A DNA stretch of 21,647 bases from Acidobacteriaceae bacterium. Its GTDB lineage: Bacteria > Acidobacteriota > Terriglobia > Terriglobales > SbA1. Shown piece after piece: positions 1,965-16,999 of this stretch. Both the position numbers and the translations under genes were made by a program. Location of the stretch: positions 16,584-38,230 of the forward strand of contig PMHI01000738.1 in assembly GCA_003156615.1 (NCBI GenBank), given 5' to 3'. How positions within the stretch are numbered: the first letter of the stretch is position 1; every line of letters begins with the position of its first letter. Below the pieces are notes generated by a model, which worked only from the letters and a program-made list of their open reading frames with translations, did not search any database and was not told the DNA's origin.

Positions 1965-2939
1965 TCATCGATACGGCACGAAGCCTTGCGTCTTCATCTC
2001 CAGGCGGTAGACTGAGGTGGTGGCCGTGATGTAGAGGGTTCGATAGTCCTTGTCACCCCAGTTCAGATTTGCCGGCTGCTCCGGCGTCACGATGGTGCCG
2101 AGATGGTTGCCCTTGGCGTCCCAGACCCAGATGCCTTTGGGCCCGGTGACAAAGACGTTGCCGTTCTGATCCAGTTTCATCCCATCGGGTACGCCATCGC
2201 CCTTCCCGCCCGGCTCCTCGCCAAAGATTCGGCCGTTGGCGATGGTTCCGTCGGAAGCGACGTCGTACACTCGGACGTTTCTTTTTTCGCTGTCATCGAC
2301 ATAGAAGTGCTTGCCATCCGGCGAAAAAGCGAGACCGTTGGGCTGCGTCAGGTCGTTGGTGAGTAACTTCACGTTGCCTTTGCCATCCAGGCGGTAGACG
2401 CCCTGGAACGGGATTTCCTGCTTTTCTCCAGCCACCAGATCCAAGGTCGGATCCGTGAAATAGAGCGCCCCGTCCGGACCAACGACCACATCGTTGGGAC
2501 TGTTCAGCTTTTTGCCGTCGTAATGGTCGGCCAGAATTTTGTATTTTCCGTCGGGAGTTACTTCGATGATGGCGCGCAACACGCTGGCACAGTCGATTAG
2601 GCGATGCTGGCGGTCGAAGGTGTTGCCGTCGGGATCGCCGAGCGCAATCACGTCCTCTTTTTTGCCATCGGGATGGAGCCGGAAAATCTTATTGATGGTT
2701 TCGTCGCTCACGTAGAGGAATCCTGCCTGGTCCCACACCGGGCCTTCAGTAAACCCGAAGCCCGTGCCCACGACGCCGAGCTTGGCGTTGTGATCCACCA
2801 GATCCCAGAACTGCGGCGATTCGGCTTGCAGCTTAAAATCTCGAGGCGCGCGTGGGACTAGAAAACCTGACGCTCGAACCGCAATGAGCAGTGAGGTCGC
2901 GATGATGAAAGTCTGCAGGATTTTCATGCTGCGATTCAT
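1965..2939 (-). CDS. Exported SMP-30/gluconolactonase/LRE family protein
   Basis: Predicted lactonase with a six-bladed beta-propeller (SMP-30/LRE domain) of 324 residues. The start at 2939 is chosen because AGAAAGG lies 7 nt upstream and the first 25 residues (MNRSMKILQTFIIATSLLIA...) form a Sec signal; a longer frame to 3086 would run into the cytochrome gene. Expected metal ligands are present: Glu in GFTEGPVW, Asn in QPNGLAFSPDG and Asp in VPDGMKLDQNG, plus SPNDVVVGPDGALYFTDPT. The family hydrolyses sugar lactones. Being periplasmic and next to a cytochrome c and a PQQ enzyme relic, it likely opens lactones made by a quinoprotein dehydrogenase. The true substrate is unknown. Confidence 0.88.
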   Translation of the reverse strand: MNRSMKILQTFIIATSLLIAVRASGFLVPRAPRDFKLQAESPQFWDLVDHNAKLGVVGTGFGFTEGPVWDQAGFLYVSDETINKIFRLHPDGKKEDVIALGDPDGNTFDRQHRLIDCASVLRAIIEVTPDGKYKILADHYDGKKLNSPNDVVVGPDGALYFTDPTLDLVAGEKQEIPFQGVYRLDGKGNVKLLTNDLTQPNGLAFSPDGKHFYVDDSEKRNVRVYDVASDGTIANGRIFGEEPGGKGDGVPDGMKLDQNGNVFVTGPKGIWVWDAKGNHLGTIVTPEQPANLNWGDKDYRTLYITATTSVYRLEMKTQGFVPYR

Positions 2940-3027
2940 GAGAATGCCTTTCTCTTTGAGTGGAACTCTGAATGAAGCTCTTGAATTAGCTCTCTCCGAT
3001 CGTCGACCATGGAGGAACGCGCCACGT

Positions 3028-3873
3028 CTATTCCTCCGATTCGTCCACTTTCGCGGGAATTTCCGACCCGCTGGCACTGGCCACACGCATCAGATAACTG
3101 ACGACATCATTCGATTCATCGAGACCGAGCGTGGAGCTGTAGTCAGATGGCATCAGGGCTTGCGAATTGTATTCCAGCCCCTCGAGGTCTGACTTCGTCA
3201 CAAAGTGAAACGTCCCGTCCAGGCTCTGTAGCTGCAGAGAGAAATTGTCTTCATTGCGAATTCTGCCGACAACTTTCTCGCCGCCGCGAGTGGTGGCCGT
3301 CACCAATCGCGCCTGCCGGTCGGCGGCCGAAGAGGGAGTGGTGATCGCGCTCCGAATCTGCTCCGCATCATGAGTGCGGGCGTAGCCCGACAGATCGGAG
3401 GCGATAAAGCCGCCCTTACCGGCAATCATGTGGCAGCCGGAACATCCTGCCTTCCCGAAGAAAACCCTCTCGCCGCGGACTGGATCACCGGGCAGCTTCA
3501 GCGTTTGCCTTGTCCCCTGAAGAGTGCGCAGGTAGGTTACTACCGCTTTGACATCGGAAGTCTCAAGGGAGTGGAAGGCCGGCATTCCAGTGCCGGGAAC
3601 GCCATTCTCAATAATGTGCGCGATCTGCGAATCGGTAAGGCGCTGGACCTTTAGATTTTCGGCGATGTTGGGCGCACGTTCGCCGCCTCTGCCGTCCAGG
3701 CCATGGCAGTTGGCGCAGGTCGAGGCGAAAGTTTGCTTGCCCTGCGTCGAGACCGGTCTGACGTTTTTCTGCGGGGAGGGTTGCTGCGGGGTCTGCGGCC
3801 AGGCGGCAAAGCAACTGGCGGCCCATAGGGCCGCCAGAACCAGCACGGGCTTTGACCTGGAGCTTGGAAGCAT
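3028..3873 (-). CDS. Exported diheme c-type cytochrome
   Basis: 281-residue periplasmic electron carrier. A signal peptide (residues 1-27, ending near FAAWPQ) is followed by a first cytochrome c domain with CANCH at 53-57 and a probable Met ligand in GTGMPAF (Met97). A second heme site, CSGCH, is at 144-148. The second half (GEKVVGRIRNEDNFSLQLQS, then TFHFVTKSDLEGLEY) resembles the heme-binding domain (TIGR02603 type) common in Planctomycetes, Verrucomicrobia and Acidobacteria. It lies 88 bp before the lactonase on the same strand and probably takes electrons from a PQQ dehydrogenase. No strong ribosome site is seen before the ATG at 3873. The receptor pseudogene ends only 14 bp upstream. Confidence 0.9.
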   Translation of the reverse strand: MLPSSRSKPVLVLAALWAASCFAAWPQTPQQPSPQKNVRPVSTQGKQTFASTCANCHGLDGRGGERAPNIAENLKVQRLTDSQIAHIIENGVPGTGMPAFHSLETSDVKAVVTYLRTLQGTRQTLKLPGDPVRGERVFFGKAGCSGCHMIAGKGGFIASDLSGYARTHDAEQIRSAITTPSSAADRQARLVTATTRGGEKVVGRIRNEDNFSLQLQSLDGTFHFVTKSDLEGLEYNSQALMPSDYSSTLGLDESNDVVSYLMRVASASGSEIPAKVDESEE

Positions 3874-3887
3874 TAGCGAAAAACGGC

Positions 3888-4684
3888 TTAGAACAAGAAC
3901 TTTAGGGCGAGTTGCATGATGCGCGGATCTCGCGCACCAGTCACATATCCAAAACCGCCCTGCCCGGTGTTGTCAACCTGCCCTGACGGGTTCATGAACT
4001 GGGCATGATTGAAGACATTGAACGCTTCTGCACGGAACTGCACCTGCATTTTTCTGTTATCCGGGTATCTTTCAGCAAGGCCATGTCAAAGTTGTCGATC
4101 CTCGGCCCACTAAAGAACCGGCGCATGGCGTTTCCGACCGTTCCAAGGTTCTCTGGAGCGAAGTAATTTGGGTTGAAGTAGGGTTGCCCCGAACGTGGAT
4201 TGCGGTTTACGAACAGGGGACCGCCAACAACCTGAGGCTCGTCGATCGTGGCATCGAACGTTCCACTCAGTGAGTTGTCATCGGATTCACTCAGCTGGAC
4301 GGGCTCACCTTTGGCGAATGTCGCGATAACAGACAACGCCCATCCCGCGGTGAGTCTTCGAGCGGCGCCACCGGTAAGCCTATCAAAGGGCATCTGGACG
4401 GTATAGCTCACGGTTAAGTCTTGCGGAAAATCGAAAATCGACAAGGCGCGGCTTAATCCGGAGTTAAACACATTGGTTGCATCAAACGACGTGGAACCAG
4501 TCTTTTGAGTATTCTGGACCCCGGTCAAGGTGTTGGTCGCGACCACCGAGGCGCCGGAAACAACGGCGCCCCACTTGTCCGTGACCACGCCGGAGGTGCT
4601 GCCGGTGATGCTTGCCGACGCCAACGCCAACGCGAAAAGCACGAACGCGAGAACTGCGACAACCGCACACCGACGATTACGCAT
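3888..4684 (-). pseudogene. TonB-dependent (Oar-like) receptor with a large internal deletion and a frameshift
   Basis: The N-terminus has a signal (MRNRRCAVVAVLAFVLFALA) and the start of a carboxypeptidase-regulatory-like domain (STSGVVTDKWGAVVSGASVV). Just after NTLTGVQNTQKT the sequence jumps to the C-terminal barrel of the same family (SYTVQMPFDRLTGGAARRLT, NYFAPENLGTVGNAMRRFF). Acidobacterial Oar-like receptors are usually about 1,000-1,200 residues, so some 800 are missing. A second lesion at the T-run 4049-4053 moves the ending (QVQFRAEAFNVFNHAQF ... DPRIMQLALKFLF, stop at 3888-3890) out of frame; one more base restores it. It would have been an outer-membrane importer for this cluster's substrate. 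An ATG at 4747 extends the frame but precedes the signal peptide. Confidence 0.88.
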
Positions 4685-4932
4685 AGCTGATCTCTTGCCG
4701 GAAGAGGCCTCACCGGATTCAACAGTGCTCCGCTCTCGCACTTTCATCTGGTGAAACCTAGTCTTGGGTCTTGAAAGTACAATGCACGATGGATGACTGG
4801 TTTATCTCAACCGTAGTAGGCGTGTCAACCATTTTGCGTTCCGGCTTAGGCCTAATAGGCAACCTCCGCTTGCTGCGCGAACTTTCTTCGACGATAAGCA
4901 GAGAATGGCCGTTTCGCCAGCAGCCGGACGAG
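4685..4932. other. Intergenic region between the receptor pseudogene and exported RidA
   Basis: About 250 bp without a supported gene on either strand. One plus-strand frame is open here (4771-5193), but it runs antisense through the RidA gene and looks like nothing known. The small palindrome TAGGCCTA near 4850 was seen; no function is assigned. Confidence 0.45.
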
Positions 4933-5400
4933 CTACTTCTGTTTCACCGCGATTGCCGAGATTTCAATTCGGGCATTGTTGACCAGGGCTGCTGCCTGAA
5001 TGGTCGCGCGCGCCGGCTTAGGGTCAGGCATAACGCTCTTGTAAACCTTGTTCATGTCCGGGAACTCACGAATGTCGGCGAGATAGACCGTGACACTGAC
5101 GATGTCCTTGAGCTCAAAGCCAGCGGCCTTGAGGACCTTCTGAATATTGTCGAGGGCCCCGGTCGTCTCCGGGCCAATACCCCCTGCGGCTAGCTTGTTG
5201 GACTCATCGGTACCCTCCTGGCCTGCAATGTACAGAGTGCTTCCCGCCACGATGCCGTCGCTAAAAGGAAGTCCCCTGGCGGGGGATAGATTCACCGCTC
5301 TCCGTTCCTGGGCATAGCCCGGATGCACTGAAACGCTTAGGGTCAGTGCGATCGCGAAGATCCAAAGAAGCAAGCGGCCAGTTCTGATCACCATCGTCAT
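4933..5400 (-). CDS. Exported RidA/YjgF/UK114 family protein
   Basis: 155-residue protein of the RidA family, whose members hydrolyse reactive enamines and imines released by PLP enzymes. The start is put at 5400 because AAAGGA lies 6 nt upstream; the ATG at 5406 would touch that site. Residues 1-30 (MVIRTGRLLLWIFAIALTLS... ending VHPGYAQE) are a Sec signal, unusual for a family that mostly works in the cytoplasm. The fold motifs are complete: LYIAGQEG, SVTVYLADIREFPDMNKVY, and the active-site Arg in PKPARATIQ (Arg131) with the following Glu in ARIEISAIA. It diverges from the rraA-like gene. A second exported RidA lies at 8850. The substrate is unknown; a periplasmic imine is inferred. Confidence 0.88.
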   Translation of the reverse strand: MTMVIRTGRLLLWIFAIALTLSVSVHPGYAQERRAVNLSPARGLPFSDGIVAGSTLYIAGQEGTDESNKLAAGGIGPETTGALDNIQKVLKAAGFELKDIVSVTVYLADIREFPDMNKVYKSVMPDPKPARATIQAAALVNNARIEISAIAVKQK

Positions 5401-5406
5401 TTTCAT

Positions 5407-5491
5407 TCCTTTCGGATAAATGGATTGGATCTTCCACCCAACGACAAACAGTGTTAGAGTCCCCGCACATATATACATCCAGGAGGGGGAA
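5407..5491. promoter_or_regulatory. Divergent promoter region between exported RidA and RraA-like genes
   Basis: The only divergent gap inside the catabolic cluster (about 85 bp), so it should hold promoters for both arms. The stretch ACATATATAC (5468-5477) could supply a -10 for one or both strands. The RraA ribosome site AGGAGGGGGA is at 5481-5490. I could not define -35 boxes or an operator. Confidence 0.4.
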
Positions 5492-6277
5492 ATGAACAAG
5501 TTTCGTGGCTTTGTGAAATCTCACAGAATCGCGGCATCGCTGGTTTCCATCGGCCTTTTGTCTGCTATCTCGTGGGGAGCCAGATTCTTGCGGGCACAAT
5601 CAGTCGCCGGAGCAACTGCACCGCAGACCGACAACGCCTTGATCGCAGACTTCCGCCGGGTGGAGGTGGCTTCGGTCTCCGATGCTCTGGAGCAGTTGAC
5701 CGGCAAGCGGATGTACATGAGTCACCGCATGCATCCGATCTTGACCGCAAAGTTTGCCGGCTTTGCGCGGACGGTCCTACTCAAGAAGGACGAGGGAAAC
5801 AGCGATCCCGCGGCGTTGAATGGAATGCTGGCAACCATTGATGAGGGCTCCGCAGATTCTGTTTACGTGATGGTCGTCGAGGACGGCGAGGACATCGCGG
5901 GAATGGGCGGGCTGATGGGCACCGCCCTGGCTGCGCGCGGCTACGTGGGAGCAGTGATCGATGGGGGAGTGCGCGATGTCGCCTATCTGCGCAAGATTGG
6001 GTTTCCCGTGTATGCGACGGGCATTGTGCCGTCGACGTCGGTGCATCATTATCGATTCGGGGGATCCCAGATTCCAGTGCGGTGCGATGGGGTGACGGTG
6101 AATGCGGGCGACATTATCGCGGCGGATAGTGATGGCGTGGTGGTTGTGCCCAGGGCGAGGGCTGAAGAAGTTCTAACCCTGGCCAAACAAATGGACTTCA
6201 AAGAACATTCGATGTATGCCGTAATTGAAGAGATGAAGTCGATTGTGGAGGCGGTAAAGAAGTTTGGAAGATTGTAG
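5492..6277 (+). CDS. RraA-like (HMG/CHA aldolase-type) protein with N-terminal export signal
   Basis: 261 residues; the start at 5492 follows AGGAGGGGGA directly. Residues 1-37 (RIAASLVSIGLLSAISWGAR, then FLRAQS) look like a Sec signal or membrane anchor. The rest is an RraA-like fold: FRRVEVASVSDALEQLTGK, MGGLMGTALAARGYVGAVID, then GGVRDVAYLRKIGFPVYATG with the Arg161-Asp162 pair conserved in metal-dependent 4-hydroxy-4-methyl-2-oxoglutarate/CHA aldolases, and GDIIAADSDGVVVVP. Family members are pyruvate aldolases, oxaloacetate decarboxylases or RNase E inhibitors. The export signal argues against an RNase E role. As first gene of the plus-strand block it may cleave a 2-keto-3-deoxy acid outside the cytoplasm; this is inference. 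Confidence 0.83.
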   Translation: MNKFRGFVKSHRIAASLVSIGLLSAISWGARFLRAQSVAGATAPQTDNALIADFRRVEVASVSDALEQLTGKRMYMSHRMHPILTAKFAGFARTVLLKKDEGNSDPAALNGMLATIDEGSADSVYVMVVEDGEDIAGMGGLMGTALAARGYVGAVIDGGVRDVAYLRKIGFPVYATGIVPSTSVHHYRFGGSQIPVRCDGVTVNAGDIIAADSDGVVVVPRARAEEVLTLAKQMDFKEHSMYAVIEEMKSIVEAVKKFGRL

Positions 6278-6305
6278 AGGATAAAAGAACTATTGCACAA
6301 AATCG

Positions 6306-6365
6306 ACTTTCATCAGATAATCCGCACTTTCATTTTGTGAGCGGTCGACGTCGATTAACTTTCAT
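6306..6365 (+). promoter_or_regulatory. Three direct copies of ACTTTCAT before iclR, candidate operator
   Basis: The 8-mer ACTTTCAT occurs at 6306-6313, 6327-6334 and 6358-6365, spaced 21 and 31 bp, that is about two and three helical turns, so all copies face the same side of the DNA. The last copy runs into the ATG of the IclR gene. The same word also occurs at 4740-4747, upstream of the receptor pseudogene. Direct repeats are seen; an operator role for the adjacent IclR protein is inferred. Confidence 0.35.
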
Positions 6366-7188
6366 GGCTAATACTCCAAAGCGAAGCTACAACATCACCG
6401 CGTTGCAGCGCGGGTTGCGTCTTCTCCGCATTTTCAGCGAGTCACCGCACGGGCTCACGGCAACGCATGTGGCGGGACGATCCCAGCTGCCGGTGAGTAC
6501 GGTCCACCGTTTTCTGGCGAACTTAGAAGGTGCGGGCTTTTTGAACCGCGGCGGAGACGGCGTGTTTCACCTGGGAATCGCGTGTTTCGCGATCGGCCAG
6601 GCGGCTTTGGGTCAGCTCGATATTCGTGGGGTAAGCCTGCCGTATCTTCAGGAATTAAACCGGCAGACGCGCGAAACCATTCACCTTACAGTGCGGCATG
6701 GGCTTTCCGCGGTTTACGTCGAGAAACTGGATTCGCCCGAGCAGTTGCGCATTCACTCCCGCATCGGTGCAGCCGTTCCCTTGTATTGCACCGCAGTGGG
6801 CAAGATCATGTTGACGTACATGCCCGACGATGAGCGGAAACAAGCGCTGCCGCAGTTGGGATTGCGGCGTCTGACCCCCAACACGGTTGGAAACCTTCAG
6901 GAGCTCCAAGCTGAACTTTACCGCGTCCGAAAGAATGGCTACGCCTGCGATTTGGAGGAGCATGAACTCCATATACGGTGCATCGCAGCTCCCATCTGGG
7001 ACCACGCTGGTGGGGTGAATTCCAGCCTCAGCATTACTGCGCCGGTGGTACGCATGCCGGTCACCCGCTTGCGCCAACTCGCGACGCTTATTCAGACGGC
7101 TGGACTCCAAATTTCGCGCGAGTTGGGATATCGGACCGCCGGTTACGGATCGCCGCCGCGAAGACCTGCGGAAGGATCCGCCGCATGA
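6364..7188 (+). CDS. IclR family transcriptional regulator
   Basis: 274-residue DNA-binding regulator. Residues 10-62 form the winged helix-turn-helix (ITALQRGLRLLRIFSESPHG, SQLPVSTVHRFLANLEGAGF). Residues 85-255 are the IclR effector domain, with ETIHLTVRHGLSAVYVEKLD, GAAVPLYCTAVGKIMLTYM and RKNGYACDLEEHELHIRCIA. IclR proteins such as KdgR often sense 2-keto-3-deoxy sugar acids or aromatic acids. The start is taken at the ATG 6364; a GTG at 6337 is possible and neither has a good ribosome site. Its stop overlaps the next start as ATGA (7185-7188), so it is translationally coupled to the PQQ dehydrogenase. It is the obvious local regulator; the inducer is unknown. Confidence 0.92.
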   Translation: MANTPKRSYNITALQRGLRLLRIFSESPHGLTATHVAGRSQLPVSTVHRFLANLEGAGFLNRGGDGVFHLGIACFAIGQAALGQLDIRGVSLPYLQELNRQTRETIHLTVRHGLSAVYVEKLDSPEQLRIHSRIGAAVPLYCTAVGKIMLTYMPDDERKQALPQLGLRRLTPNTVGNLQELQAELYRVRKNGYACDLEEHELHIRCIAAPIWDHAGGVNSSLSITAPVVRMPVTRLRQLATLIQTAGLQISRELGYRTAGYGSPPRRPAEGSAA

Positions 7189-8807
7189 GGATGGTATCGC
7201 TCATCGCCGTGGTCTTTACCTGCCTGGCAGCTTGGGCGGGAAATGATGCGCCGGCAAGCGTGTCGACGGCGATCGATGTGCGGCCTGCGGATCTACTGGT
7301 CCAACCCCCGACCGCGAACTGGATTTCCTACAACGGGGACTATTCGGGCCGGCGCTATAGCGGACTTTCCGAAATCAACCCGGGCAATCTGGGGGGGCTG
7401 CGCGCCGAATGGGTCTTTCATGCGCACAACTCGGGACGGCTTGAGGTCACTCCAGTTGTCGTGAAAGGAATGATGTTCGTGACTGCTGCGAATGATGCCT
7501 CCGCGCTCGACGCGCGGACTGGACGAGTGGTATGGCACCATTCGTGGCCGATTTCGGAAGGGCTGATCGACGACGCGTCGGGGCACATCAACCGCGGGGT
7601 TGGGGTTTGGCACAATCGGGTTTACATGGAAACGGACAATGCGCATCTCCTCTGCCTGGACGTGCGCTCGGGCTATCTGATCTGGGACGTGGCGTATGCG
7701 GATTGGAACCGGAATTACGGCGCAACCAGCGCACCGCTCGTGGTCAAAGACAAAGTCTTGGTGGGGACCTCCGGCGGCGATGACGGCGTGCGGGGCTTTG
7801 TGGCAGCCTACGACGCATTGACCGGCAAGCTAGCTTGGCGATTCTGGACGATACCGGGTCCGGGAGAATTCGGATCCGAGAGCTGGCCCGGGAAACTCTA
7901 CCTGCACGGCGGCGGAACTACGTGGATGCCCGGCACATACGATCCCCAGCTCAACACGATTTATTGGGGTACAAGCAATCCTGCGCCTGACTTCGAGGGT
8001 GGCGTGCGCCCGGGAGACGATCTCTACACCGACTGTGTATTGGCACTGGATCCCGATACCGGAAAATTGAAGTGGTATTTCCAGTTCACGCCGCATGACC
8101 TTTTCGACTTCGACGCGGTTGAGACTCCGATCCTGATCGATGCCGTTTATCAGGGTACGGCACAAAAATTACTGGTGCAGGCAAACCGCAATGGCTACAT
8201 CTATGTGCTCGACCGCACCAGCGGAAGGTTTCTGTCGGCAACACCATTCGTGGACAAACTGAACTGGGCGAAAGGAATCGATGCACAAGGCAGGCCTCTT
8301 GTGACCGGCATCCAGCCGACTGCGGGAGGAACACGAGTCTGCCCCGGCTATTCGGGAGCCACCAACTGGTTTGCACCGTCGTACAGCGAGTCCACGCATT
8401 CCGTTTATTTCATGGCCCTGGAGGAATGCGAAACCTATTTTTTCAAGCCGCAGACTTTTCGGGAAGGTCAAGGCTATTACTCGACGGGAGTAAAGCGTAT
8501 TCCGGGGGAACATTCCCAGAAGGTTCTGATTGCATTCAACCTGGATACAAATTCGATAAGCTGGAAATATCCGCAAACAGGCGCGGGACGCTCCTCCGGT
8601 GGGACCATGACAACGGCGGGCGGCCTGGTGTTTTTCGGGGACGATGCGGGCTCGCTTGAGGCTGTAGACGGGCGAAGTGGCAAGGCGCTATGGCACTTCA
8701 ATACGGGGCAAGACATGAGTGCGTCCCCTATGACCTATGCAATCGGCAGCAAACAATACGTGGCGATTGCAGCGGGTAGTGATGTTTTCAGCTTCGCATT
8801 GCCCTGA
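7185..8807 (+). CDS. Periplasmic PQQ-dependent dehydrogenase (quinoprotein, no fused heme)
   Basis: 540 residues: a signal peptide (residues 1-20, MVSLIAVVFTCLAAWAG) and an eight-bladed quinoprotein propeller with repeated W-motifs (DARTGRVVWHHSWP, DPDTGKLKWYFQ, DGRSGKALWHFNTG). The catalytic region reads TPHDLFDFDAVETPIL with Asp308 in the catalytic-base position and Asp310 two residues on, the pair found in lanthanide-dependent XoxF-type enzymes (calcium MxaF-type enzymes lack the second Asp). No CXXCH is present, so electrons must leave through a separate cytochrome c, such as the diheme protein on the minus strand. The family oxidises alcohols or sugars. The start at 7185 overlaps the iclR stop; AAGGA lies just upstream. 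RidA follows 42 bp later. Confidence 0.92.
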   Translation: MRMVSLIAVVFTCLAAWAGNDAPASVSTAIDVRPADLLVQPPTANWISYNGDYSGRRYSGLSEINPGNLGGLRAEWVFHAHNSGRLEVTPVVVKGMMFVTAANDASALDARTGRVVWHHSWPISEGLIDDASGHINRGVGVWHNRVYMETDNAHLLCLDVRSGYLIWDVAYADWNRNYGATSAPLVVKDKVLVGTSGGDDGVRGFVAAYDALTGKLAWRFWTIPGPGEFGSESWPGKLYLHGGGTTWMPGTYDPQLNTIYWGTSNPAPDFEGGVRPGDDLYTDCVLALDPDTGKLKWYFQFTPHDLFDFDAVETPILIDAVYQGTAQKLLVQANRNGYIYVLDRTSGRFLSATPFVDKLNWAKGIDAQGRPLVTGIQPTAGGTRVCPGYSGATNWFAPSYSESTHSVYFMALEECETYFFKPQTFREGQGYYSTGVKRIPGEHSQKVLIAFNLDTNSISWKYPQTGAGRSSGGTMTTAGGLVFFGDDAGSLEAVDGRSGKALWHFNTGQDMSASPMTYAIGSKQYVAIAAGSDVFSFALP

Positions 8808-8849
8808 TTGCGAGCGGATCCCGAAGGCTAAATCGGAAGGAGGAGGTAT

Positions 8850-9359
8850 ATGAATTTGACTTTCACTCGACGAACGTTTGCGGCGCGGTTCGCTTCCGTG
8901 CTTTCCGCGTTGGGAGTTACTGCCGCCGTTTTGCCTAACCGTGCATTGGCGCAAAATGCTGGCGCGCAGGATGGGGGAATCCGCAAGCTGAATAGCGAAG
9001 GCAAACCGGGCAGCGAGAAAGACGTCATCATGCCGGTGATTGTTCACCGCGGGTTGATTTATGTCGCGGGGCAGGGTGCCCACGATAAACGCGACTCCAA
9101 GGAATGGACGATCGAGTCTCACACCAGCATGGTCATGGACAAGATCAAGAAGCACGTGGAAATCGGCGGGGGAACCATGGACAGCATTTTGCAACTGAAT
9201 GTCTTCCTGGTGAAGATTGAACACTGGGACGGAATGCATAAAGTGTTCTCGACATATTTTCCTCATGGCGGCCCGGCGCGCACAACCGTTGCGGTGGCTG
9301 CGCTGCCGGGAGACTCGCTGGTGGAAATCAATTGCATCGCCGCAGTCACCAGTAAGTGA
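8850..9359 (+). CDS. Tat-exported RidA family protein
   Basis: 169 residues; the start follows the strong site GGAAGGAGGAGG at 8836-8847. The N-terminus has a twin-arginine motif (TRRTFAARF) and a hydrophobic stretch ending in ALAQ near residue 35. The RidA fold follows: GLIYVAGQGAHDKRDSKEWT, MDSILQLNVFLVKIEHWDGM, and the active-site Arg in GGPARTTVAVAALPGD (Arg144) with Glu in VEINCIAA. RidA proteins speed hydrolysis of enamine/imine intermediates made by PLP lyases. The next gene, 20 bp on, is a PLP enzyme with its own Tat signal, which is a direct functional match. It differs from the Sec-type RidA at 4933-5400, so the two may act on different intermediates. Confidence 0.88.
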   Translation: MNLTFTRRTFAARFASVLSALGVTAAVLPNRALAQNAGAQDGGIRKLNSEGKPGSEKDVIMPVIVHRGLIYVAGQGAHDKRDSKEWTIESHTSMVMDKIKKHVEIGGGTMDSILQLNVFLVKIEHWDGMHKVFSTYFPHGGPARTTVAVAALPGDSLVEINCIAAVTSK

Positions 9360-9379
9360 GCGGTAAGGGAGCTTCATTC

Positions 9380-10642
9380 ATGCGACTGAACTCAAAGTGG
9401 AATCGCCGGAGTTTTCTTGGTGGCGTGGGAGCCATTGCCGGTTCGATCCTGGCGCCACGCAAGTTGTTTTCCTGGAATCGCCGGGCGGCGGGCGCAAGCA
9501 TACCGGTAAACGGGTTCGGGCAAACAGGAAACCCCTACGAAGAACTTGGAGTTACGACAGTGATTAACTGTGAAGGGACCATGACGATGCTGGGCGGTTC
9601 CCTTCCCCACCCCGAACTCGAAGCGGTGATGACCATGGCTGGGCGCCACTTTGTAAGCATCCCAGAGTTAGAGGTGGCCGCGGGAAAACGCATCGCGGAA
9701 ATGCTCAAGTTGCCGGAGGGTTACACGGCGCTTGTGACCTCGGGCGCGGCGGCAGCGATGCAATCAGGCCTGGCGGGCATTCTCACTGGTGGGAACGAGG
9801 CCTTGATCCGGCAATTGCCGGATCTCACCGGTATGAAGTCGGAAGTGATTATTCAGAAATCACATCGCAATCCGTTTGATCACCAGCTGCGATCTACGGG
9901 AATCAAGCTGATCGAGATTGAAACCGTTGATCAATTGCGAGCTGTGGTGAATGAGCGCACGGCGATGATGCACTTCTCCAATTTCGCCAACGCGGCGGGG
10001 CAGATCAAAGTAGACGACTGGGTCAAGCTGGCCAAGCAACATAACGTCCCTTGCATGAACGACGCCGCGGCCGATACGCCACCGGTGTCTCATCTCTGGG
10101 ACTACACCAACATGGGGTACGACCTTGTGACTTTTAGCGGCGGCAAAGCGATTCGCGGGCCGCAGTGCGCCGGCCTGTTGATCGGACGGAAGGACTTGGT
10201 GGCCAATGCGCTGCTCAACAACAGCCCGCACGAGGACACATTAGGCCGCAGCCAGAAGGTCGGAAAAGAAGAAATCCTGGGAATGCTGAAAGCGCTCGAA
10301 CTTTTTCTCGCGGAAGACCACGAGGCGCTGGCAAAAGAATGGCAGGCTCGGCTGGAAGGGATTTCGCGCGAAATCACGAAGGTTCCAGGCGTCAGTACAT
10401 CGTTCTTTGTTCCGGACATTGCCAATCACGTGCCGCACATGAGCATCACGTGGGACGCGGCCAGCATTTCGTTGACGCCCGAACAGGCTTCCAAGCAGTT
10501 GCGCAACCTGAAGCCGTCCATCGTGATAGGAGGCGGCGAAGGGCGACCGGGGCTGGCCATGAACTCGTTCATGCTGCAAGCCGGCGAAGACAAAGTCGTA
10601 GCCGAGCAACTTTCGCGCCTGCTGCGCGAACACGCGGCGTAA
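9380..10642 (+). CDS. Tat-exported PLP-dependent enzyme, SelA/DgaE (D-glucosaminate ammonia-lyase) type
   Basis: 420 residues, fold type I. The Tat signal NRRSFLGGVGAIAGSIL lies within the first 30 residues; the start at 9380 is preferred because AGGGAG lies upstream and the Tat motif then sits near the N-terminus (GTG at 9356 is also possible). Domain landmarks: YEELGVTTVINCEGTMTMLG, ALVTSGAAAAMQSGLAG, the cofactor Asp in CMNDAAADTPP, and the Schiff-base Lys in TFSGGKAIRGPQ (Lys256). The family includes L-seryl-tRNA selenium transferase-like proteins and D-glucosaminate(-6-phosphate) ammonia-lyases. Export of a folded, PLP-loaded enzyme fits the Tat route. Together with the RidA before it, a periplasmic ammonia-lyase for an amino-sugar acid is the best reading. 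No selenocysteine genes are nearby. Confidence 0.85.
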   Translation: MRLNSKWNRRSFLGGVGAIAGSILAPRKLFSWNRRAAGASIPVNGFGQTGNPYEELGVTTVINCEGTMTMLGGSLPHPELEAVMTMAGRHFVSIPELEVAAGKRIAEMLKLPEGYTALVTSGAAAAMQSGLAGILTGGNEALIRQLPDLTGMKSEVIIQKSHRNPFDHQLRSTGIKLIEIETVDQLRAVVNERTAMMHFSNFANAAGQIKVDDWVKLAKQHNVPCMNDAAADTPPVSHLWDYTNMGYDLVTFSGGKAIRGPQCAGLLIGRKDLVANALLNNSPHEDTLGRSQKVGKEEILGMLKALELFLAEDHEALAKEWQARLEGISREITKVPGVSTSFFVPDIANHVPHMSITWDAASISLTPEQASKQLRNLKPSIVIGGGEGRPGLAMNSFMLQAGEDKVVAEQLSRLLREHAA

Positions 10643-10659
10643 CCGAGGAATATCCTGCG

Positions 10660-12015
10660 ATGAACAGTGCTAGAACGAGCCATGTCCGCTGGTTTCTGGT
10701 GTTCTGGCTGTTCATCCTCAGTGCCGTGTCTTATCTCGACCGAGTAAACATTTCCATTGCCGGCGGGTCCATTGCGGAGGCCTACCATCTCAGCGATGTG
10801 CAACTGGGTAAAGTGTTCAGCGCCATGCTGGTCGGCTACGCACTGTTCCAGACGGTTGGCGGGAGGCTGGCCGACCGCTTTGGACCCCGCCGTGTGTTGG
10901 CTGCGGGCGTCGCGTGGTGGGGAATCTTCACCGCCCTCACTGCCATGGTTCCCGCAAACATTGCAGGCGCGATCTTTGTTTTCGTCGTGGTGCGCTTTCT
11001 TCTGGGCGCGGGCGAAGCGGTGATTTATCCCTCCGCCAATCAATTCATTGCGCGTTGGATTCCGCCTTCGGAGCGAGGTATTGCGAATGGCTGGATTTTC
11101 GCTGGTGTGGGAGCGGGCGCCGGCCTTACTCCGTTGCTCATTACCCACATCATGCTTCGTTACGGCTGGCGATCGTCTTTCTGGGTATGCTCCATCATCG
11201 GATTTGCCGCGGGTGCGGTCTGGTTCCTGATTGCTCGCGACGCGCCCGCCGAGCATGCTGGCGTTTCTGCCTCTGAGTTGACGTTGATTCGCTCGGGGCT
11301 GACGCACGCGGAGTCGAATAATGATCCGAAAGTGCTCGTAACCTGGGGTCGCGTAATGCAAAGCAAAGAAGTCTGGGCCGTCACCCTCAGCTACTTTTGC
11401 TATGGCTACGTGGCTTGGATTTTCTTCAGTTGGTTCTATCGTTATCTCGCCAAAGCGCGTGGCCTGGATTTGAAGGCCAGCGCCTTTTACACCATGTTGC
11501 CATTTCTCGCCATGTTGGGGTGCTGCCTCTTAGGAGGAGCTATCAACGACCGGCTTACAAAATGGCAAGGGCCGCGGGTTGGACGCTGCGGTCTTGCGGC
11601 GTTCGCGATCGCCGTGGCAGGGATATTCATCGCTTTCGGGTCGCAGGTTCAAAGCGCGCGGCTGGCCAGCGTGGTACTCGCCGGCGGAGCCGGGGCGCTT
11701 TATTTGTCCCAGAGTTCCTTCTGGTCGGTGACGGCGGATATTGCTGGCGCGTCCTCGGGTTCAGTATCGGGCTTCATGAATATGGGGAACCAGATTGGAG
11801 CGGCGCTCACGGCTTCTCTCACTCCCTGGATCGCAGCCCGATTCGGTTGGACGACTTCATTTCTGGTGGCAGCGGGGTTGTGCGCGGTAGGCGCGGTGAG
11901 CTGGCTGGTGGTGGATCCATCGCGGCAACTCGGAGTTTTGACCGCTGATGCTGTTGGGTTGCAGGTTCAGAGTTCTAAACGTATGTCCGATCAGTTTCGT
12001 GAAGTTACGTCGTAA
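10660..12015 (+). CDS. MFS transporter, anion:cation symporter (ACS) family
   Basis: 451-residue inner-membrane transporter with about 12 hydrophobic segments in two six-helix halves. The first helix carries SYLDRVNISIAGGSIAEAY, the signature of the ACS family (hexuronate, glucarate, galactonate and related acid transporters). The loop motif GGRLADRFGPRRVLA follows helix 2, and RFLLGAGEAVIYPSANQFIA matches helix 4. The start at 10660 has GAGGA upstream; the open frame before it is antisense-free overlap with the PLP gene and carries no membrane helix. It lies 17 bp after the PLP gene and 5 bp before the glycoside hydrolase, within one operon. Likely imports the sugar acid or keto-acid produced outside the membrane. 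Confidence 0.9.
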   Translation: MNSARTSHVRWFLVFWLFILSAVSYLDRVNISIAGGSIAEAYHLSDVQLGKVFSAMLVGYALFQTVGGRLADRFGPRRVLAAGVAWWGIFTALTAMVPANIAGAIFVFVVVRFLLGAGEAVIYPSANQFIARWIPPSERGIANGWIFAGVGAGAGLTPLLITHIMLRYGWRSSFWVCSIIGFAAGAVWFLIARDAPAEHAGVSASELTLIRSGLTHAESNNDPKVLVTWGRVMQSKEVWAVTLSYFCYGYVAWIFFSWFYRYLAKARGLDLKASAFYTMLPFLAMLGCCLLGGAINDRLTKWQGPRVGRCGLAAFAIAVAGIFIAFGSQVQSARLASVVLAGGAGALYLSQSSFWSVTADIAGASSGSVSGFMNMGNQIGAALTASLTPWIAARFGWTTSFLVAAGLCAVGAVSWLVVDPSRQLGVLTADAVGLQVQSSKRMSDQFREVTS

Positions 12016-12020
12016 AGATC

Positions 12021-14216
12021 ATGCCGAAGCTGAACATCAAATCGAAAAAGCGGTTGAGCAGATCCGGCCTTGCGATCGCTGTTCTTCTTGTTGTCGTGCA
12101 CAGCACCGGTGCGACCGCTCAATCGGCGTCTGCCGCGGAACCGCAGCCGGTGGCTACCGTTCACGTCGACGCTACTCCTGGCCATGCCATCAACTCCTTC
12201 GATCCCGACAGCGCTCTTGGCAGCTCCATCGATGTTCTATCTCATGATGGGATCGACAGGGTTTACACCCCGCACATCATCCAGGAGTCCCTTTCGGCGG
12301 GCTGGGGACCGATTACTTATCGCAACAACTCCGAGTTGCGCATGGCAGCTTGGCATTGGACCGAGAACGGGACGTGGAGCGATCCTGCACACAAGAGGGG
12401 GTACTTTACTGGAAACACCGAGCTCAAGGAACCGCTGCGCTACATCCTTTCCTACGCGTTGCCGCACCGCGGTTTCTCGACCAGCGGAGACCGCCCGCTG
12501 CAAGGTCCAAATCTCAGCTACTGGAAGAGCAATCCGTATCTAACCAGCAAGTTCACGGGGGAAAGCGACGCCCTTCATCCGCAATGGGTGGTCGTGGACC
12601 TACAGGCCGAAAAACCGGTGAGTGCTATTCGCATCGCCTGGGCCGACCCGTATGCGACGACCTATCAAGTGGAGTATTGGGTGGGAAAACGCGCCCTCGA
12701 CTTCGATGAAGGCCCGAAGGGTGAGTGGAAGACCTTTTCCGCAGGAGCGATAAAGGACGCGCACGGTGGAACCGTCAATCTGAAGCTCGCCGACACACCC
12801 ATCACAACACAGTACGTGCGCGTATTGATGACTGAATCATCGAACACTTGCGATCTGCATGGATCGGACGACGTCCGCAATTGCGTGGGATACGCCATTC
12901 AGCAAATCCGCGTCGGCAGCGTCGATTCCAGCGGCGCTTTTGCCGAGGTCCAGAAGAATATGGGCGATCGGCCAACCACTTATTGCTCCTCCTCGATTGA
13001 TCCCTGGCACTCGGCCGCTGACGTGAACGCCACCGGCAGCTACCAGCACAGTGGCTTTGATCTTTTCTTCACCAGCGGCCTCACTAACAATCTGCCCGCA
13101 ATGATTCCGGTCACCATGCTTTACGGCACGCCGGACGATGCTGCCGCTGAAATTGCCTACATTGAGAAGCGTGGCTATAGCATCGGATACATCGAACTGG
13201 GTGAGGAGCCCGACGGCAAGCACGCCATGCCCGAAGACTACGCGGCCTTGTTCATCCAGTGGGCGGCGGCTATCCACAAAGTAGATCCGAAACTTAAGCT
13301 GGGCGGGCCGATCTTTGAAGGGGTGAATGACGACATTCGAGTCTGGCCCGACGCGCAGGACCGGACCTCATGGATGGGCCGCTTCGTGGACTACCTGAAG
13401 GCGCACGGCCGGATTTCCGACCTGACTTTCGTGTCGTTCGAGCACTATCCGTTTGAAGCGTGCACCATTACCTGGGAAACTCTGTACACCGAGCCTCAGT
13501 TGATGAAGCACATCCTGCAGGTGTGGAGAGACGACGGCGTGCCCAAAGAAGTTCCGCTCATGGTTACCGAGAACCATCTAGCCGCTGAGCTAACGGGACC
13601 GATGACCACGATTTTTGCAGCGCTGTGGCTCGCGGACAATGTCGGCTCTTTCTTCGAGGGTGGAGGCGCTGCCTTTTATCACTCGCCGATTCAGCCGCAA
13701 GGCGTTCAGAACAGTTGTCTGGGTTGGGCCTCATGGTCGAATTTTGTTTCTGACGATAGCTACGACATCAAGGGATACACTTCGCCCTACTTTGCCGCTC
13801 ATATGATTAACCTGGAGTGGGTACAGCACCGCTCCGGGCTGCATCACATGTTCCCTTCTTCCACCGATGTCAAGGATGCCGAAGGCAATGTGCTGGTCAC
13901 GTCGTATGCAGTGCATCGTCCAGACGGAAACTGGTCTCTGATGCTGGTCAACCGGGACGAGACCAAACCGCACACCGTGCGCGTGGAATTTGAGGACTCC
14001 AAAAGCAAGCAGAGGGTGTCGTTTTTCGGGCCGGTCGCCTTCGTGACTTTCGGGAGCGAACAGTATGTGTGGATTAGCGACGGCCCAAACAGTCACGCGG
14101 ACCCCGATCATCCACCGATCGCGACTACCCTGGCCTCGACCCCCGAGACTGCGTTCACCCTGCCGAAGGCCTCAATCACCGTCCTGCGGGGAAAGGTGGC
14201 GAGGTTCAAGGATTGA
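12021..14216 (+). CDS. Secreted TIM-barrel glycoside hydrolase with discoidin-like domain
   Basis: 731 residues. A signal peptide (residues 1-33, LAIAVLLVVVHSTGATAQ) is followed by an N-terminal domain, then a discoidin/F5-8C-like beta domain at about 188-305 (QWVVVDLQAEKPVSAIRIAW, TTQYVRVLMTESSNTCDLHG). A TIM barrel of the clan-A kind covers about 340-600, with the acid/base candidate Glu396 in IELGEEPDGK and the nucleophile candidate Glu517 in LMVTENHLA. A C-terminal beta domain (YAVHRPDGNWSLMLVNRDET) resembles the cap of GH30/GH39/GH79-like enzymes. The exact GH family is not clear to me. It starts 5 bp after the MFS gene and ends the operon; it probably releases the sugar that the exported enzymes process. 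A 6-bp hairpin (14215-14230) covers the stop. Confidence 0.78.
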   Translation: MPKLNIKSKKRLSRSGLAIAVLLVVVHSTGATAQSASAAEPQPVATVHVDATPGHAINSFDPDSALGSSIDVLSHDGIDRVYTPHIIQESLSAGWGPITYRNNSELRMAAWHWTENGTWSDPAHKRGYFTGNTELKEPLRYILSYALPHRGFSTSGDRPLQGPNLSYWKSNPYLTSKFTGESDALHPQWVVVDLQAEKPVSAIRIAWADPYATTYQVEYWVGKRALDFDEGPKGEWKTFSAGAIKDAHGGTVNLKLADTPITTQYVRVLMTESSNTCDLHGSDDVRNCVGYAIQQIRVGSVDSSGAFAEVQKNMGDRPTTYCSSSIDPWHSAADVNATGSYQHSGFDLFFTSGLTNNLPAMIPVTMLYGTPDDAAAEIAYIEKRGYSIGYIELGEEPDGKHAMPEDYAALFIQWAAAIHKVDPKLKLGGPIFEGVNDDIRVWPDAQDRTSWMGRFVDYLKAHGRISDLTFVSFEHYPFEACTITWETLYTEPQLMKHILQVWRDDGVPKEVPLMVTENHLAAELTGPMTTIFAALWLADNVGSFFEGGGAAFYHSPIQPQGVQNSCLGWASWSNFVSDDSYDIKGYTSPYFAAHMINLEWVQHRSGLHHMFPSSTDVKDAEGNVLVTSYAVHRPDGNWSLMLVNRDETKPHTVRVEFEDSKSKQRVSFFGPVAFVTFGSEQYVWISDGPNSHADPDHPPIATTLASTPETAFTLPKASITVLRGKVARFKD

Positions 14217-15598: not shown

Positions 15599-16999
15599 AT
15601 GCTTCTAACAATCACCAACACGAAGAGTCCCGCGACGGACTTAGGCTACCTGCTTCACAAGAACCCGAACCGCTTGCAGTCGTCCGAACTTTCATTCGGA
15701 AAAGTCCATGTTTTCTACCCCGAAGCGTCAGCCGACCGCTGCACCGCCGCCCTGCTGCTCGACGTTGACCCAGTGGGGCTCGTGCGTAATCGCCGTGGGC
15801 CGTCTGGAGAGGGTGGGATGCTCGATCAATACGTGAACGACCGTCCCTATGTCGCATCGTCGTTCATGAGTGTCGCCATCGCTCGGATTTTCAATTCCGC
15901 GTTGGCGGGAAACAGCAAAGATCGCCCGGAACTCGTGACCGTTCCGCTCCCTCTTATTGCGCGGATCGCCGTCCTGCCCTGCCGTGGCGGGGAGGATTTC
16001 CTGCGCCGCCTGTTCGAACCACTGGGGTATCAGGTCGTCGCAGAACACCATCCGCTCGATGAGAAGTTTCCCGAGTGGGGCGAAGGCCCGTACTACACCG
16101 TGGAGATAAGCAAGATCGTTACCTTGCAACACTTGCTCACCCATCTTTACGTTTTGATCCCTGTGCTCGATGCAGACAAACACTACTGGGTGGGAACGGA
16201 TGAAATCGAAAAGCTGCTTCGCCACGGCGAAGGCTGGCTACAAGCACATCCAGAGCGCGAAGCAATCGTAAATCGCTATCTGCGGGGGTTTAGAAATCTG
16301 ACCCGAGAGGCATTGGCACGGCTGACAGAAGATGAATCCCTTGATCCCGACGCGGAACAGGAAACAAAAGAGGAGCAGGAACAAGCGATTGAGGCTCCCA
16401 TTCGCCTTCATGATGCCCGGCTCCAGCAGGTCGCATTCGAACTCAAAGCCAGCAGTGCCAAACGGGTTCTCGATCTCGGCTGTGGAGAGGGCAAACTCGT
16501 CCGCGAACTGCTGAAGGACAAACAGTTTGAAGAAATCGTGGGAATGGATGTGTCGTATCGCAGTCTCGAAGTAGCCGCCGAACGCCTCCACTTAGATACT
16601 CTACCGCCTAAGCAGAAGGAGAGGCTGAAACTGATGCAGGGCTCGCTCATGTATCGAGACAAGCGGCTAACCGGATTCGATGCTGCCGCCGTTGTCGAGG
16701 TCATCGAGCATCTGGATGAGCCACGGCTCGCGGCGTTCGAACGAGTGCTCTTTGAATTCGCACGTCCGCAAACCGTAGTGCTGACGACACCGAATGCCGA
16801 GTACAACGTGAAATTCGAGACGCTACCTGCTGGTCAGTTTCGGCATCGAGACCACCGCTTCGAGTGGACTCGTGAGCAATTCCAGAAGTGGGCGAATGGA
16901 ATCGGTGAAAGGTTTGGATACGGGGTGGAGTTCAAGGCTGTGGGCAAAGAGGATCAGCAAGTCGGGGCACCGACTCAGATGGGAGTGTTCCGGCAATGA
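15599..16999 (+). CDS. hen1: Bacterial Hen1: 3'-terminal RNA ribose 2'-O-methyltransferase
   Basis: 466 residues, the usual length of bacterial Hen1. It methylates the 2'-OH at the 3' end of a cleaved RNA before Pnkp ligates it, so the repaired RNA resists a second cut. The N-terminal half starts with MLLTITNTKSPATDLGYLLH, typical of the family's ligase-activating domain. The C-terminal methyltransferase has the SAM loop VLDLGCGEG (residues 290-298) and the metal-binding set Glu367, Glu370 and His371 in VVEVIEHLDEP, with His419 in HRDHRFEWTREQF, as in plant HEN1. The ATG at 15599 fits the family N-terminus although no strong ribosome site is seen. Its stop overlaps the pnkp start (ATGA, 16996-16999), showing coupled translation. 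Confidence 0.95.
   Translation: MLLTITNTKSPATDLGYLLHKNPNRLQSSELSFGKVHVFYPEASADRCTAALLLDVDPVGLVRNRRGPSGEGGMLDQYVNDRPYVASSFMSVAIARIFNSALAGNSKDRPELVTVPLPLIARIAVLPCRGGEDFLRRLFEPLGYQVVAEHHPLDEKFPEWGEGPYYTVEISKIVTLQHLLTHLYVLIPVLDADKHYWVGTDEIEKLLRHGEGWLQAHPEREAIVNRYLRGFRNLTREALARLTEDESLDPDAEQETKEEQEQAIEAPIRLHDARLQQVAFELKASSAKRVLDLGCGEGKLVRELLKDKQFEEIVGMDVSYRSLEVAAERLHLDTLPPKQKERLKLMQGSLMYRDKRLTGFDAAAVVEVIEHLDEPRLAAFERVLFEFARPQTVVLTTPNAEYNVKFETLPAGQFRHRDHRFEWTREQFQKWANGIGERFGYGVEFKAVGKEDQQVGAPTQMGVFRQ

Follow-up and report, generated by a model that had tools for sequence, protein, structure and literature searches.

We propose, with modest confidence, that a gene cluster at positions 1965-14216 of a 21,647-nt stretch of DNA from an Acidobacteriaceae bacterium (contig PMHI01000738.1; the whole stretch is called the window below) encodes an extracytoplasmic route, in which a 2-amino-2-deoxy sugar would be converted to 2-keto-3-deoxygluconate (KDG) and ammonia in the periplasm, outside the inner membrane. 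The substrate of the central step would be a 2-amino-2-deoxy-aldonate. The cluster consists of two divergent groups of genes, from the SMP-30 lactonase to RidA1 on the minus strand and from RraA to the glycoside hydrolase (GH) on the plus strand:

1965..2939, minus strand: SMP-30/gluconolactonase-type lactonase, predicted to be exported (PF08450, 1.6e-51; Sec-type signal)
3028..3873, minus strand: diheme cytochrome c, predicted to be exported, presumed electron acceptor (PF13442 and TIGR02603; two CxxCH motifs)
3992..4684, minus strand: remnant of a TonB-dependent receptor gene (PF25183, matched at positions 637-794 of 838 only)
4933..5406, minus strand: RidA1 (PF01042, 2.2e-31; Sec-type signal; PAR arginine kept)
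5492..6277, plus strand: RraA-like protein with the R-D motif, predicted to be exported (PF03737, 4e-34)
6364..7188, plus strand: IclR-family regulator (weak matches including BhcR and KdgR; signal absent)
7185..8807, plus strand: quinoprotein dehydrogenase, predicted to be exported (TIGR04528, 524.4 bits; TIGR03075, 466.2 bits; D-x-D)
8850..9359, plus strand: RidA2 with a twin-arginine signal (PF01042, 1.3e-20)
9380..10642, plus strand: DgaE-like candidate ammonia-lyase dependent on pyridoxal 5'-phosphate (PLP), with a twin-arginine signal (TIGR01437, 172.7 bits; 7lc0, 1.1e-30)
10660..12015, plus strand: MFS transporter of the ACS/galactonate type, presumed KDG importer (TIGR00893, 1.7e-64, under the cut-off)
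12021..14216, plus strand: GH with an F5/8C domain, predicted to be exported (PF00754; first codons apparently a relic of a KDG-kinase gene)

In the proposed route, the exported quinoprotein would oxidize an aldose (a hexosamine) at C1 and pass the electrons to the diheme cytochrome c, and the SMP-30 protein would open the lactone to an amino-aldonate, for which D-glucosaminate is the leading candidate. The PLP enzyme, which would receive its cofactor in the cytoplasm and be exported by the twin-arginine translocation (Tat) system, would then remove water across C2-C3 of the unphosphorylated amino-aldonate; the fold, the PLP lysine, and the carboxylate arginine speak for this step. With the C3 proton donor of DgaE lost, a free enamine would be released, as it is by a DgaE mutant, and the exported RidA would hydrolyze it towards KDG and ammonia. 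The MFS transporter would bring KDG into the cell. There a KDG kinase and an aldolase of 2-keto-3-deoxy-6-phosphogluconate (KDPG), families encoded downstream in some relatives and not in the window, would yield pyruvate and glyceraldehyde-3-phosphate. KDG is probably also the compound sensed by the IclR protein, by analogy with KdgR.

Export Signals

Signals were predicted by a heuristic of our own: either a charge-free hydrophobic stretch following a net positive charge or the twin-arginine motif RRx[FLIMVY]. The scan covered the window proteins and their orthologs from related loci, with identity thresholds of 60% for PLP frames and 45% for RidA frames, and cytoplasmic enzymes encoded in those loci served as controls; the TonB receptor and 12 frames lacking a usable start (five for the quinoprotein, three for RraA, and one each for the PLP enzyme, SMP-30, GH, and NagB) stood outside it. 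Eight products of the window have predicted Sec- or Tat-type signals, in agreement with the original prediction that nearly all enzymes of the cluster are exported. Signals were found in SMP-30, the cytochrome, RidA1, RraA, RidA2 (TRRTF), the PLP enzyme (NRRSFL), and GH. The quinoprotein, scanned from the ATG at 7191, has a strong hydrophobic stretch with no preceding charge; from 7185, one Arg precedes it, as judged by eye. The same scan detects no signal in the IclR protein.

In the related loci, the twin-arginine motif before a moderate hydrophobic stretch is present in 60/63 PLP enzymes and 44/46 RidA2 proteins, so that the PLP and RidA signals on which the original prediction had depended hold up in the related loci. 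By this conserved motif, the PLP enzyme and RidA2 are predicted Tat substrates. Three of the five misses are L058 (the second piece of a split gene), the L003 RidA2 (cut by the contig start), and the L035 RidA2 (a single Arg). The strict Sec rule is satisfied by all RidA1 (20/20), RraA (46/46), and SMP-30 (31/31) proteins, and it is weaker for the cytochrome (39/48), the quinoprotein (26/51), and GH (10/15); among 13 quinoprotein N-termini that were inspected, four have a strong stretch with no charge before it. The control families have no signal by either rule: IclR 0/25, KDG kinase 0/16, KDPG aldolase 0/12, and NagB-like proteins 0/9 (0/62 in total). In the structure model of the PLP protein, residues 1-42 fall below 50 pLDDT and the remainder is mostly well ordered, which agrees with the signal region.

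The signals are thus split at KDG. The families acting before KDG are signaled in half to all of their members, and no member of the kinase, aldolase, IclR, or NagB-like families has a predicted signal.

The PLP Enzyme and Its RidA Partners

DgaE (7lc0) is both the closest PDB sequence to the PLP enzyme (1.1e-30) and the top fold match of its structure model (TM by target 0.84; model pLDDT 86.2). The NCBIfam matches score 126.6 and 172.7 bits, the latter for the DgaE-type model TIGR01437, under its cut-off. We take the DgaE/SelA-like structure to be of fold-type I. Selenocysteine synthase, a name given to such proteins in some sources, was rejected, since the NCBIfam SelA model scores 43.6 bits vs. 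172.7 for the DgaE type and the fold scores are lower.

The PLP lysine, at position 213 of the DgaE chain (SGAK; Lys-217 in the numbering of the paper, a mismatch), corresponds to K256 of the window protein and is kept in 36/36 aligned proteins. The carboxylate arginine R226 corresponds to R270, with Arg in 32/36 aligned proteins, K or Q in three orthologs, and H in L063. With this fold and these residues kept, the glucosaminate ammonia-lyase type assigned by the original prediction stands as a predicted activity, and the protein is best described as a DgaE-like ammonia-lyase candidate.

Two other features of the DgaE active site are missing. The phosphate arginines R301, R332, and R346 are replaced by H353, G384, and F397, and none of the 26 aligned orthologs, the window protein included, has Arg at these three positions; phosphorylated glucosaminate was rejected as a substrate because of this loss. 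In DgaE, the phosphate was docked near Arg-301, 332, and 346, and the carboxylate near Arg-226 (PMC9529869). The pair H162/H163 corresponds to N201/F202, with NF or NY in all 26 orthologs, the window protein again included. In DgaE, His-163 donates the C3 proton, and the H163A mutant is still active and releases the enamine (PMC9529869). By analogy, the residue pattern predicts an unphosphorylated carboxylate substrate and a free enamine product.

The free enamine expected from the lost proton donor would explain why a RidA gene lies beside that of the PLP enzyme. Since the enamine signal of H163A DgaE was gone by 60 s without RidA (PMC9529869), the chemistry would not strictly depend on RidA, which would instead protect against the enamine or speed its removal. 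Both window RidA proteins score above the PF01042 threshold of 27.3 bits (RidA1 108.8, RidA2 74). The RidA arginine, presumably the catalytic residue, is present in both and in 76/77 aligned sequences, one of which is a reference chain (frames >110 aa). The pairing of RidA with the PLP enzyme, also part of the original prediction, is seen directly in gene order, with RidA2 immediately upstream of the PLP gene in 45/55 loci.

An alternative is that the PLP enzyme is an oxygen-dependent oxidase or decarboxylase like Cap15, with RidA handling the imine formed by oxidation. Cap15 (8t7j) is as good a fit to the model as DgaE (TM by target 0.84-0.87 vs. 0.84; 24-26% identity in the fold alignment) and has no HH pair in that loop of the alignment. 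Its substrate is a beta-hydroxy-alpha-amino acid (PMC7497351), and PvdN demonstrates that such an enzyme can be exported by Tat (PMC6206403). However, the best NCBIfam match is the DgaE-type lyase model, and oxidative decarboxylation would not give the KDG needed by the kinase and aldolase. Cap15 itself is an oxygen-dependent decarboxylating monooxygenase of antibiotic synthesis. We consider this explanation quite improbable and retain the DgaE-like lyase.

Probable Import of KDG

Sixteen loci contain a gene for a PfkB-type kinase, and 12 contain one for a KDPG aldolase. By a stricter count, downstream and on the same strand, the kinase is found in 15/62 and the aldolase in 11/62 loci; the aldolase is adjacent in 9/35 loci with enough flanking DNA. 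The representative aldolase exceeds the TIGR01182 cut-off (195.1 vs. 156.05), and the best models for the representative kinase are a KDPG-aldolase/kinase fusion and KDG/KDGal kinases, below their cut-offs. The IclR protein matches KdgR at 3.9e-50, below the cut-off, with a slightly better match to BhcR. The transporter matches TIGR00893 at 1.7e-64, under the cut-off, and so conforms to the ACS type proposed earlier.

The split of signals, together with the kinase and aldolase genes downstream in relatives, points to KDG as the compound that enters the cell. The membrane boundary seems to fall at KDG: most likely, the keto-deoxy acid is imported whole and then processed by the cytoplasmic KDG kinase and KDPG aldolase. 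An adjacent kinase was not accepted as proof by itself, given how widespread this kinase is in the class. In support of the link, 25/30 host genomes (three incomplete) encode a kinase of at least 71% identity at some position, and over 299 genomes of the class a kinase of at least 60% identity goes with the PLP ortholog (17/23 genomes with the ortholog vs. 60/276 without, counted by hand).

Two assignments of the original prediction were revised. It had an RraA-type aldolase cleaving the keto-deoxy acid; since relatives carry a KDPG aldolase and a KDG kinase downstream, RraA need not be the aldolase, and its role as a KDG aldolase was downgraded. The R and D of RraA are kept in 45/45 aligned proteins (frames >200 aa), a motif we take to be that of metal-dependent RraA-fold aldolases. 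With this motif intact, some aldolase or decarboxylase role may still be considered. It also had GH releasing the sugar as a step of the pathway. GH is an accessory gene found in 11/63 loci, and its start in the window appears to be a kdgK relic; GH was therefore rejected as a core part.

Conservation in Acidobacterial Genomes

A single-protein scan with one genome per species yielded 63 loci. Of these, 62 are in records titled Acidobacteria, Acidobacteriaceae, Sulfotelmatobacter, Terriglobia, Bryobacteraceae, Acidiferrales, and similar; where a title is silent on the phylum, we assume that the record belongs to Acidobacteriota. The remaining locus is from Latescibacterota, with 36% identity and without a signal. 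The closest PLP proteins, 91-92% identical to that of the window, are in the acidobacterial records L001 and L002.

Gene order was counted over the 62 loci with at least 60% identity (L063 excluded), each denominator being the loci with enough flanking DNA. Apart from RidA2, the partners of the PLP gene are the quinoprotein (nearby in 43/52 loci), the cytochrome (40/46), RraA (40/50), MFS (34/44), SMP-30 (24/40, upstream on the opposite strand), IclR (24/50), and RidA1 (20/49). Order is kept over most of the 62 loci, and the conservation of the gene set on which the original prediction relied is thus upheld. Within the limits applied to identity and length, comparison of the pairwise distances of each cluster part with the PLP-enzyme distances gave correlations of r 0.57-0.83, each computed from loci holding both genes.

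Beyond the orthologs, PLP homologs in the wider sense are widespread in the class. Among 299 genomes, 23 have an ortholog (at least 62% identity) and 133 have some match at E 1e-60. Of 7999 candidates scored in a large protein collection, 6917 match the PLP protein at E 1e-3. The 120 matches listed are 86-98% identical to it and are named seleniumtransferase or uncharacterized by the source.

Could the genes be chance neighbors, with the ordinary export signals of a large secretome and no joint pathway? The 133 genomes with some PLP homolog are consistent with this, as are the twin-arginine starts of several PLP paralogs in the loci and locus L033, which holds the PLP gene without most of the cluster. 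The conservation of order and orientation across most of the 62 loci down to ~64% identity, with correlated divergence, makes this explanation very improbable, and we keep to a joint pathway.

The loci contain 17 PLP paralogs, of which 10 have a RidA neighbor, three are cut by the locus end, and four have none (one in L035, two in L045, one in L046). Paralogs with 36-45% identity, most with a visible twin-arginine start, are found in L037 (2355-4789), L015, L020, L023, L038, L048, L050, and L052. The RidA-family genes adjoining them look exported by eye, and the RidA partner in L037 combines three L-PSP domains in a single protein. Further paralogs (52-53%) occur beside a RidA1-type gene in L053 and L055.

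One branch (loci L044, L045, L046, and L055 and genomes G021, G022, G023, and G027) has PLP and quinoprotein genes with no adjoining MFS match or KDG kinase. Kinases in this branch do not exceed 45% identity, and PqqE does not reach the cut-off. In the isolate KBS 96 (L046), only the PLP, quinoprotein, cytochrome, and SMP-30 parts are present near each other. The pathway may be wired differently in this branch.

A second RraA gene, ~36-40% identical and mostly signaled, recurs in 15 loci; in 13/62 loci it is found immediately after the PLP gene, on the opposite strand (L007, L009-L011, L016, L021, L022, L029, L041, and others). Other recurring neighbors are an exported, weakly mutarotase-like protein (14 loci; 42 bits vs. 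a cut-off of 550), a NagB-like protein (10 loci), and a mostly signaled cupin (8 loci).

Weighing the Route and Its Alternatives

Several observations count against the proposed route. The signals rest on a heuristic scan instead of SignalP. The alignment of the HH loop contains a two-residue gap, and H198, H350, and H353, conserved in most orthologs, are possible alternative proton donors. In the window, neither the KDG kinase nor the KDPG aldolase is present, and none of the products searched by profile matches a deacetylase family. RidA2 is not directly upstream in 10/55 loci; L033, L044, L045, and L046 have no RidA match within their stretches of 14.7-21 kb, and of the cluster genes L033 shows just PLP and MFS over 21 kb. 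The kinase is adjacent in a minority of loci with enough flanking DNA, only 10/36. KDG kinase is also common in the class, and the link may be partly taxonomic; the 299 genomes are related, so that the Fisher values for class-wide co-occurrence do not come from independent trials. None of the 49 quinoproteins has the vicinal Cys pair, and 48/49 have Asp in place of the metal Glu. PqqE over the cut-off, also counted by hand over the 299 genomes, is missing in 8/23 genomes with an ortholog and in 10/30 host genomes.

The frequency of KDG kinase in the class and its adjacency in a minority of loci also agree with a reading in which the exported lyase-RidA chemistry is the same and the substrate is not a hexosaminate, the KDG enzymes serving a neighboring sugar-acid pathway. 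Possible substrates are D-threonine- or D-serine-like compounds, an amino-uronate, or an amino sugar acid derived from peptidoglycan. OngC, a cytoplasmic analog, also deaminates D-serine and D-threonine (PMC9537276), and the GH model resembles beta-glucuronidases. On the other hand, a gene row that unites a KDG kinase, a KDPG aldolase, an IclR protein matching KdgR, and a transporter of the ACS type is most consistent with a KDG product, and no amino-acid enzyme is found among the recurring neighbor families annotated (rarer neighbors left out). We regard such a substrate as unlikely and continue with a hexosaminate.

The quinoprotein invites another question. Its nearest NCBIfam model, TIGR04528, bears the name acido-empty-quinoprotein, which suggests that pyrroloquinoline quinone (PQQ) may be absent from the protein; the scores fall below the cut-offs (524.4 of 650 for TIGR04528, 466.2 of 480.05 for TIGR03075). 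If the quinoprotein were not a working PQQ enzyme, oxidation would take place elsewhere and the cluster would receive ready-made sugar acids, for example from oxidized chitin. The missing cysteines, the Glu-to-Asp replacement, and the hosts without PqqE fit this explanation. Against it, the catalytic Asp, the metal Asn, Trp, Arg, and the second Asp of D-x-D are kept in 49/49 quinoproteins (the window protein and 48 frames >450 aa out of 56, second copies included). PqqE over the cut-off is also enriched with the cluster, in 15/23 genomes with a PLP ortholog vs. 52/276 without, and is found in 20/30 host genomes. Use of PQQ without its synthesis is common among bacteria, and the PQQ importer PqqU, among Acidobacteria, was found only in Vicinamibacteria (PMC12124388), which are named in none of the 63 record titles. 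An idle quinoprotein therefore appears rather unlikely to us.

D-x-D is the term used for a lanthanide motif (PMC11996626). The PedH-type lanthanide quinoproteins (6zcw) share D-x-D, the catalytic Asp, and the metal Asn with the window protein, but the latter has no vicinal cysteines and has Asp in place of the metal Glu. The quinoproteins of the cluster are thus a possible lanthanide-dependent subgroup. The oxidation itself has a parallel in acetic acid bacteria, which convert glucosamine to glucosaminic acid (PMC9171043).

Relation to Known Systems and Implications

The closest functional parallel is provided by the ong cluster of Pseudoalteromonas prydzensis, which serves the catabolism of GlcNAc1A. 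There, a PLP enzyme makes KDG and ammonia from glucosaminate (GlcN1A), as proposed here, the RidA protein OngD is essential, a KDG kinase follows, and outer-membrane TonB receptors are present (PMC9537276). A kinase gene lies downstream in 15/62 related loci and is absent from the window. The two systems differ in the PLP enzyme, since OngC is of fold-type III and predicted to be cytoplasmic, whereas the window enzyme is DgaE/SelA-like with an export signal. They also differ in what crosses the inner membrane: the ong pathway uses the deacetylase OngB and an SSS transporter, and it is GlcNAc1A, not KDG, that is imported (PMC9537276). DgaE shares the PLP lysine, the carboxylate Arg, and the 2-keto-3-deoxy acid product class; the window protein is set apart from it by the Tat signal and by the loss of the three phosphate arginines and of the His-162/163 pair (PMC9529869).

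The PLP enzymes PvdN and PtaA of Pseudomonas are loaded with PLP in the cytoplasm, exported folded by Tat, and act on periplasmic amino groups (PMC6206403). Their reactions, decarboxylating and transaminating, belong to siderophore tailoring and not to catabolism, and RidA is not mentioned in the passages on these enzymes (PMC6206403). In Natrarchaeobius, chitinase gene clusters include a DgaE-like lyase, an IclR regulator, a RutC-family protein, and a glucose dehydrogenase; a phosphorylated route is proposed there, RutC is taken as a repressor, and export is not discussed in the part of the source on these clusters (PMC12343721).

The original prediction held that deamination outside the cytoplasm is not a described pathway. 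This was overstated: PLP enzymes acting on amino groups in the periplasm are on record (PvdN and PtaA; PMC6206403), and the ong pathway converts glucosaminate to KDG in the cytoplasm and needs a RidA to do so (PMC9537276). The chemistry thus has cytoplasmic precedents in ong and dga, and Tat export of PLP enzymes has precedents too; their combination appears to be new. In open-licence full texts, no exported lyase-RidA catabolic route was found among the matches listed, nor any RidA-family protein with a signal peptide in Acidobacteria; judged by title, nothing related was found there on Acidobacteria with PQQ, glucosamine, and periplasm or on deamination of glucosaminate in the periplasm. The membrane L-amino-acid deaminase of Proteus may be a further precedent for extracytoplasmic deamination, a point not made in the passages found on it.

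In its fullest form, to which we would give somewhat less than an even chance, the whole module is extracytoplasmic. It would combine a lanthanide-type quinoprotein and a cytochrome, a Tat-exported DgaE-family lyase without the C3 donor, and a co-exported RidA, with only the nitrogen-free KDG imported. The lyase-RidA pair would then be a general exported module, because distinct Tat-PLP paralogs sit beside other exported-looking RidA genes.

Acidobacteria are described as ubiquitous and abundant in soil (PMC12124388). If the proposed route is correct, the periplasm of this soil phylum is where amino sugar acids, such as those originating in chitin or peptidoglycan, are deaminated, and the release of carbon and nitrogen is tied to a quinoprotein and possibly to lanthanides. 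RidA would gain a role outside the cytoplasm with a chemical reason, a PLP lyase without a proton donor, and functions would be suggested for PLP proteins now named seleniumtransferase or uncharacterized.

Other Features of the Window

The IclR and quinoprotein genes are joined by an ATGA overlap (starts read off the sequence). Two places in the cluster look rearranged. Relative to L001, ~2.87 kb is gone from the middle of the TonB-receptor gene, which the original prediction did not mention, as seen from a two-piece DNA match; the remnant can still be read through as 251 aa from 4747. Where the GH gene begins, 41 bp (12016-12056) resemble the kdgK start of L003 (88%), which suggests that kdgK, and perhaps the aldolase gene too, was lost by a deletion that fused it to the GH gene, or else a misassembly. 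The TonB gap and the kdgK-GH fusion may be either true rearrangements or assembly joins. The GH structure model has a pLDDT of only 67, and its fold matches are beta-glucuronidases and GH51 enzymes.

Outside the cluster, two long overlapping genes at 15599-19551, assigned by eye only, are presumably an RNA-repair pair of a Hen1 methyltransferase and a polynucleotide kinase-phosphatase. At 1-777 of the window there is a partial gene that by eye is glucose-6-phosphate dehydrogenase-like.

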